From Thermodesulfovibrionales bacterium (GTDB taxonomy: Bacteria > Nitrospirota > Thermodesulfovibrionia > Thermodesulfovibrionales > UBA9159), in NCBI GenBank assembly GCA_035686305.1, contig DASRZP010000018.1:1-56253 (forward strand): a DNA stretch of 56,253 bases, read 5' to 3'. The notes below the pieces were generated by a model. It did no database searches, had not been told where the DNA came from, and saw only the letters and a list, made by a program, of their open reading frames with translations. The position numbers and the translations under genes are program-made. This document shows, in pieces, positions 13,063 through 14,296 of the stretch. How positions within the stretch are numbered: the first letter of the stretch is position 1; each line of letters begins with the position of its first letter.

Positions 13063-13348
13063 TGGTACATGAGATTCGTTCCTGCGAGCGTTGATGCGTG
13101 AGGCGGTTCAATCCCGCAACCCGGCCTAACCCCTCTCTCCTTCTTCCGTCTTTCCCATCGTTATAGCAAAGTTTTCAGGTGTGTGTGGCAGGGGGTTGGT
13201 CCCTATATCCTTGTCAACCAGACGCCGGTCCCCGAAGCTCATGAACGACCAGGGGTAAAGGCGCTTGATATCCGTTGGTTGAATGATTTAGAATTCATTA
13301 AAAGCCTTGACTTATACGAGACAGCTTCTGATTTCAAGGAGGTGTGCC

Positions 13349-13594
13349 ATGCTTCTGAGACTCTACTTTAACGACCCGCCGGGCAGGACATGAAGTCATA
13401 TCAGTTCTGTGGTTGCAGAACTCAAGAAACGCTATACCTTCGACGTCGAGATCGTAAAGAAGACCGACACCGGCGTCGTAAAGAGAATCTTCGCGCTCAA
13501 ATTTCCCTCCGTCGAGATCGACGGCGAGAGAATTGCTGAAGCGCGGGACATCACTATTGAAGAGCTTGAACAATACATATGTCAACGTTGTTGA
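13349..13594 (+). CDS. Small thioredoxin-fold selenoprotein (in-frame TGA = Sec)
   Basis: ATG 13349 follows a near-perfect AAGGAGG site (6-nt spacing) and opens an 81-residue frame broken only by TGA at codon 15 (13391-13393). Reading that TGA as selenocysteine gives MLLRLYFNDPPGRT-U-SHISSVVAEL, a first beta strand, a redox loop with Sec where a thioredoxin/glutaredoxin fold has its active cysteine, and then helix 1. The remainder (FDVEIVKKTDTGVVKRIF, FPSVEIDGERI, ITIEELEQYI) completes a short thioredoxin-like fold. A second-strand start at GTG 13409 would lose the redox loop and has no ribosome site. A 7-bp hairpin begins 9 nt after the TGA. The motif TUSH lacks a second cysteine. Function is inferred as thiol/selenol redox; the exact family is unknown to me. 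Confidence 0.75.
13403..13422 (+). promoter_or_regulatory. Candidate bacterial SECIS hairpin
   Basis: AGTTCTG (13403-13409) pairs perfectly with CAGAACT (13416-13422). The loop is TGGTTG, or GGTT if the U-G wobble closes. The loop G's lie 18-19 nt after the TGA at 13391-13393. This fits what is known of bacterial SECIS elements: a short stem immediately downstream of the UGA, an apical loop with G at its start, inside the reading frame. Confidence 0.65.
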
Positions 13595-13639
13595 TGCTGT
13601 AACGGCAGCGAGTTATAACAGCCTGTTCGCCGCAACGCC

Positions 13640-14296
13640 ATGACCCAGATCGCACCGCATTTCCACGAAAAAAACAGCCCCAATCTCGGGAGATACAGGA
13701 TCACCGCAATGTTCTATGACCTCCTCGACCTCCCCTGGGAGTTGATGTATAAGAAGTGGAGGCCCGTCCTCGTCGAAGATGTGCGGGGGTCAGTGCTTGA
13801 GGCAGGAATCGGCACCGGGAGGAACCTGAGGTATTATCATCACAATGTGACCCTGACCGCCCTTGACCTGAGCGCAGCCATGCTGAAGCGGGCAAAGAAG
13901 CGGGCGAAGGATGCGGCCTGCAGTGTCAACTTTGTTTGTGATGATGCCTGTCTCATGAAATCCATTCCGTCAGTCCGTTATGACTGGATCATCTCGACCT
14001 TCCTCTGCTGTGTCATGCCTGAAGAACTTCAGCCCCTTGCACTTGCGCAGTTTTCCCGGGTTCTGAAACCCGGCGGACATTTCAGGCTTTTGGAAATCAT
14101 CTATTCGAAGACGCCCGCTCTGCGAAAACGGCAGGAGCTCTTTGCCAATTTTGTGGAAAAGGTCTATGGGGCTCGCTTTGATCGCAACACCCTTCACCTC
14201 GTCGAAAGCGCTCCGAGGCTGAAGGTTACCAAGACTCGCTTTCTCAAAGACGACACCTATCTGCTCATCGAGGGAATCAGGACTGCCGATGATTGA
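13640..14296 (+). CDS. Class I SAM-dependent methyltransferase
   Basis: 218 residues with the Rossmann-fold methyltransferase motifs: motif I VLEAGIGTGRNL, the acidic end of strand 2 TALDLSAAML, and motif post-I/III LKPGGHFRLLE. The ubiquinone/menaquinone methyltransferase (UbiE-like) and phosphatidylethanolamine N-methyltransferase families share this layout, so the substrate cannot be assigned. It follows the selenoprotein by 45 bp on the same strand and may be co-transcribed with it. Confidence 0.8.
   Translation: MTQIAPHFHEKNSPNLGRYRITAMFYDLLDLPWELMYKKWRPVLVEDVRGSVLEAGIGTGRNLRYYHHNVTLTALDLSAAMLKRAKKRAKDAACSVNFVCDDACLMKSIPSVRYDWIISTFLCCVMPEELQPLALAQFSRVLKPGGHFRLLEIIYSKTPALRKRQELFANFVEKVYGARFDRNTLHLVESAPRLKVTKTRFLKDDTYLLIEGIRTADD

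Follow-up and report, generated by a model that had tools for sequence, protein, structure and literature searches.

The window, a 56,253-nucleotide stretch of DNA from a Thermodesulfovibrionales bacterium, was found to carry a small gene that almost certainly encodes a selenocysteine (Sec) protein of the TsoC family. Taken as a whole, the explanation that we favour with good confidence is that of a functional tsoC-type selenoprotein gene working together with the SAM methyltransferase encoded downstream of it. As judged from the sequence, the selenoprotein gene is real and its family is already known; the new part may be its setting, as this TsoC does not belong to a Tso operon and has a methyltransferase gene beginning 45 nt behind it. 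The methyltransferase pairing and fusion, together with a sister clade of the family, are the parts that deserve follow-up. The features discussed below are collected in Table 1.

Table 1. Positions of the tsoC-type gene, its predicted signals and the methyltransferase in the window, with the fused homologue at locus L112.
Feature	Position	Strand	Basis or remark
Promoter-like site TTGATA-18-TAGAAT	13265-13294	+	10/12 consensus positions; candidate by consensus match alone
Ribosome-binding site AAGGAGG	13336-13342	+	6 nt 5' of ATG 13349
tsoC-type selenoprotein gene	13349-13594	+	81 residues; translation with UGA as Sec, NF045708 match, homologues
In-frame UGA, codon 15, predicted Sec	13391-13393	+	UGA/Cys at the same codon in homologues; Sec machinery encoded by the host
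bSECIS hairpin, stem 13403-13410/13415-13422, apical loop GGUU 13411-13414	13403-13422	+	Folding and covariation
Class I SAM-dependent methyltransferase, 218 aa	13640-14296	+	45 nt 3' of tsoC; elsewhere, orthologues lie 3' of TsoC-type genes or share an ORF with one
Codons of the invariant Cys123-Cys124 pair	14006-14011	+	Motif F(L/I)CCV(M/L)P
Natural TsoC-methyltransferase fusion	L112:1498-2427	+	Single 310-codon ORF, UGA included

Codon 15 and the hairpin behind it

The preliminary description of this DNA had pointed to a ribosome site, an ATG at 13349, a TGA at codon 15 and a reading frame that stays open to 13594, and all of these were confirmed by translation with UGA as Sec. GGAG-type sites were also present upstream of many homologues. 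The UGA is followed by 66 further open codons, a length with a chance probability of about 7%, and then by the stop UGA at 13592-13594. The predicted product is MLLRLYFNDPPGRTUSHISSVVAELKKRYTFDVEIVKKTDTGVVKRIFALKFPSVEIDGERIAEARDITIEELEQYICQRC, in which U stands for codon 15. The terminal UGA (codon 82) was considered as a second Sec codon and rejected; it was read as a stop because the homologues gave no support and the 3' RNA folded no better than shuffles (z 1.07). Past this stop, the frame would run CCNGSEL to a TAA (13592-13618), a CUCC-like tail without homologue support.

Matches were obtained in 10 of the 61 searched genomes; some of them had a single in-frame TGA at the corresponding codon, others Cys. 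Genome contigs supplied extra loci from Nitrospiraceae and other Nitrospirota, and the closest named homologue records were Nitrospirota MAGs. Within the phylum, a TsoC-type gene was present in 49 of 396 genomes, while no copy of the gene was found in viral contigs. In the tree, the window's clade of 18 (12 UGA and 6 Cys) was separate from the five canonical NEPxGxTU members, all with UGA (support 90), and a sister clade comprised 23 UGA and 7 Cys members; three changes between the Sec and Cys states were required. Homologues with Cys at residue 15, proposed earlier as a check, thus exist, and 13 homologues carried an in-frame Cys in place of the UGA.

Codons 1-14 were conserved as protein, with 9-10 of 14 residues identical and the changes mostly in third positions; the 42 nt upstream of the ATG, unlike these codons, matched in just 11-16 positions. 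This rules out GTG 13409, within the frame, as the start of the gene. The homologues began at the same ATG, so that two of the refuting conditions named in the preliminary description, homologues starting at this GTG only and a lack of conservation before the TGA, do not apply. Among 49 aligned sequences, the invariant core consisted of P10, G12, U/C15 and P53. Since the residues flanking U vary, the "TUSH" named in the preliminary description is not a motif; what is conserved is N-[DE]-P-x-G-x-x-U.

According to the published criteria, a bSECIS has a loop of 3-9 nt, a stem of 4-16 bp, a G within the first two loop positions, a distance of 16-37 nt from the UGA and an MFE of at most -7.5 (PMC13188914, Fig. 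2). The hairpin of the window, with the 4-nt loop GGUU placed 17 nt from the UGA, a stem of 8 bp and -9.1 kcal/mol, falls within all four bSECIS criteria. It had been described as a perfect 7-bp hairpin with a GG-containing loop; its site, the GG loop and the seven Watson-Crick pairs were right, but the stem is 8 bp long, with a closing U-G pair.

By itself, the hairpin of the window was unremarkable, as 48 of 200 dinucleotide shuffles folded equally well (z -0.74) and the comparison with a synonymous-codon null gave p = 0.14. The stem TCCGTGGTCACGGA was found repeatedly across 13 UGA homologues from the window's clade. In these 13 sequences, both-side changes occurred in four of the eight stem pairs, a count reached by none of 500 shuffles; the covariation was far above slid controls, and the signal was lost when the partners were slid. 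A C-G pair replaced by U-A is a compensatory change in the window stem. Against the synonymous-codon null, the UGA members of the window's clade plus canonical TsoC had a mean z of -1.6 (p < 0.05 in 8/18), compared with -0.1 for the Cys members of the window's clade (p < 0.05 in 0/6). In the sister clade, the same null gave mean z values of -1.7 for UGA and -1.4 for Cys, and UGA was not separated from Cys. The alignments thus indicate a predicted hairpin that is subject to compensatory changes in the UGA versions; the Cys versions within the window's clade do not have it.

The host genome (G000), a 3.2-Mb draft, contains the Sec machinery whose presence had been left to be checked: SelA (522 bits), a SelB-like start adjoining selA (the first 221 aa, read by eye), a Sec-type SelD (360 bits) and tRNA-Sec (70.6 bits). 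The host SelD gene (L106, G000:C57:7793-8716) has an in-frame TGA of its own and is predicted to encode a Sec-containing selenophosphate synthetase. With the hairpin 17 nt past the UGA as their guide, SelB and tRNA-Sec would insert Sec at codon 15, and UGA readthrough is predicted there. It is the homologues, rather than the hairpin or the open frame alone, that raise the selenoprotein reading above chance. That UGA 13391 is an ordinary stop, leaving a 14-codon peptide and then a separate 61-residue protein from GTG 13409, is extremely improbable: table 11 does list an ORF at 13409-13594 and the window's hairpin alone is not unusual, but the upstream start is common to the homologues with N8, P10 and G12 conserved, Cys replaces the UGA in frame in 13 of them, the hairpin covaries, GTG 13409 falls within it, and a protein begun there would be without the first strand of the AlphaFold model and without its active-site loop. 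Ordinary gene calling would end at the UGA, or annotate the 61-residue remnant alone.

The TsoC family and its sister clade

The predicted protein exceeded the cut-off of the NCBIfam model NF045708, "NEPxGxxU motif selenoprotein TsoC" (57.2 bits against 45), over residues 2-80 and profile positions 2-84 of 87, and this model was matched by all 13 aligned members. The family is therefore a curated one, and the suggestion of an undescribed small selenoprotein family does not hold. The protein resembles canonical TsoC in its length, GxxU motif, Sec position and thioredoxin-like fold. It differs in having NDPPGRTU, with D for E and otherwise matching NEPxGxxU, the UGA lying at U; it differs further in its methyltransferase neighbour and in a host without TsoA or full-length TsoB.

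TsoC is listed with the motif GxxU in Table 1 of PMC13188914, where it is credited to Haft & Tolstoy 2025, and the Tso operon is a three-selenoprotein operon (PMC13188914). No TsoA was found in the host genome, and no full-length TsoB either; partial TsoB domain matches, below the cut-off, occurred elsewhere. Since the host is without TsoA and full TsoB, the TsoC of the window stands outside the Tso operon, and membership in that operon was ruled out.

The sister clade, characterized by 'NDPMGKRU...CPSV', comprises L086-L105, L046-L054, L009:1914-2165 and L034:435-686. Six of its members were scanned with the TsoC model; five scored 31-40 bits, below the cut-off of 45, and L048 scored 50. No other NCBIfam model naming this clade was found. 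GxxU selenoproteins are thus more widespread in the phylum than the named model captures.

Several loci showed further arrangements. At L009 and L034, sister-clade and window-clade genes lie close together on the same strand, so both types coexist in two genomes. At L015, two canonical TsoC genes stand in tandem (1471-1794 and 1872-2201), with a UGA in both. At L005/L011 (G002), a TsoC-type frame, VVIKLYFNDPPGRSU..., is broken by TAA codons after about residue 55, which would mean that the gene has decayed or that the assembly is wrong there.

The downstream methyltransferase

The methyltransferase of the window matched Methyltransf_25 with 65.5 bits and reached none of the named NCBIfam families at cut-off; for the ArsM arsenite methyltransferase (NF008823), it scored 22.5 bits against a cut-off of 263. 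Close orthologues (56-66% identity) were found in 12 of the 396 genomes of the phylum, set apart by a sharp score gap. The motif F(L/I)CCV(M/L)P was invariant among the methyltransferases (alignment of 15 rows from 13 genomes), and its Cys-Cys pair would suit a soft substrate.

The methyltransferase gene lies directly 3' of a TsoC-type gene in the window, at L080 (window's clade) and at L087 (sister clade), and 2.8 kb from one at L093. At L112, the two are fused; the TsoC part scored 135 bits to NF045708 and is joined by a flexible linker to a methyltransferase 66% identical to that of the window. The fold of this fused protein resembled generic class I methyltransferases, the nearest solved one being phosphatidylethanolamine N-methyltransferase. 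A TsoC-type gene was present in 8 of the 12 methyltransferase genomes compared to 49 among all 396 (Fisher p = 1.1e-5, relatedness ignored). In the other four none was detected, and at most TsoC-type genes the methyltransferase was missing from the adjacent position. Conservation of the gene order with ruvAB was also considered and rejected, as ruvAB was nearby at one other locus alone (L081), in the opposite orientation.

From these arrangements, the methyltransferase is probably a partner of TsoC. A Tso-independent TsoC with a recurrent, once-fused methyltransferase partner provides a concrete, testable hypothesis on TsoC chemistry. In MduS (NF045649), ArsM/AhpD (NF041537) and ArsM/DUF2284 (NF041536), a SAM methyltransferase domain is likewise combined with Sec chemistry, a feature shared with the L112 fusion. 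However, the window methyltransferase scored 26.9, 25.9 and 19 bits against their respective cut-offs of 380, 510 and 575, and in the system of L112 and the window the Sec sits on the TsoC thioredoxin domain.

Proposed function, neighbourhoods and fold

TsoC has been named as a family but, to our knowledge, has no known function. Most likely, the TsoC of the window serves the methyltransferase as a thioredoxin-fold partner that bears a selenol. Sec insertion would yield a protein of 81 residues with a thioredoxin fold and one selenol in its active site (GxxU), and this protein would probably cooperate with the methyltransferase. The selenol may bind, reduce or carry a sulfur, selenium or metalloid group; the group held by the selenol may then be methylated by the methyltransferase, whose Cys-Cys pair is invariant. 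A chalcogen or metalloid chemistry has about even chances, and that such a substrate would be methylated is less likely. This substrate class was proposed because relatives adjoin genes for ArsR, TauE/SafE, DsrE/F/H carriers and sulfide:quinone-reductase-like (SQR-like) enzymes. We put forward, as a tentative joint proposal, that TsoC-type proteins and the Cys-Cys methyltransferase make up a hitherto undescribed module of two parts, at times fused, for selenol-dependent methylation (sulfur/selenium/metalloid) independent of the Tso operon, and that the 'NDPMGKRU...CPSV' clade, with its link to ArsR and TauE/SafE, represents a second family, still without a name, within this superfamily.

ArsR-type regulators were neighbours at 10 of the 22 loci compared (window-type plus canonical TsoC), TauE/SafE at 6, SQR-like flavoproteins at 6, DsrH/TusB-like proteins at 5 and YeeE/YedE-type transporters at 3. 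Many sister-clade loci had ArsR upstream and TauE/SafE directly downstream, and three of them contained SelD-like genes (AIRS domains). Among the papers searched, none joined a selenoprotein with TauE and ArsR. These neighbours point to sulfur or selenium handling, and they are also what favours another function, in which TsoC would be a persulfide relay, that is, a selenol carrier of sulfane sulfur between a sulfide-oxidising flavoprotein, DsrE/F/H and a TauE/SafE-type exporter, with the methyltransferase incidental. We regard this relay as unlikely. Within the window, tsoC is flanked by no ArsR, TauE/SafE, SQR-like, DsrE/F/H or YeeE/YedE gene, so that the link to sulfur comes from the relatives; moreover, distant lineages also have the methyltransferase next to a TsoC-type gene, and in L112 the two are one fusion.

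Returning to the selenol partner of the methyltransferase, its AlphaFold model (pLDDT 89) had a thioredoxin fold, with thioredoxins as the nearest solved folds (TM about 0.7). Together with the UGA/Cys homologues and the bSECIS-type hairpin, the model bears out the earlier proposal of a small thioredoxin-fold selenoprotein. The same fold, along with the low-scoring resemblance to Thioredoxin_3 and to the MTH895/ArsE family, would also suit a general small thiol-disulfide reductase of the thioredoxin/glutaredoxin type. This role is more doubtful still, since the redox loop is without a second Cys and the gene is sparse in the phylum, with specialised neighbourhoods, unlike a housekeeping reductant.

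Thioredoxins have two redox residues in the loop (CxxC), whereas the window protein has GxxU. The MTH895/ArsE family (TIGR00412; PF13192 Thioredoxin_3; PDB 1ilo) shares the same small thioredoxin fold, and residues 14-77 align with it, but that family has CxxC too; the window protein was below the cut-offs of TIGR00412 (17.4 against 62 bits) and PF13192 (13.1 against 24.8). The Sec aligned to the second Cys of CxxC in 1ilo (MTH895) and in 8xyw, a designed thioredoxin, and Gly12 replaced the first, standing in all 49 aligned members where the attacking Cys would sit. The protein should therefore have one active-site selenol, and the earlier statement that it has no partner cysteine was right for the redox loop.
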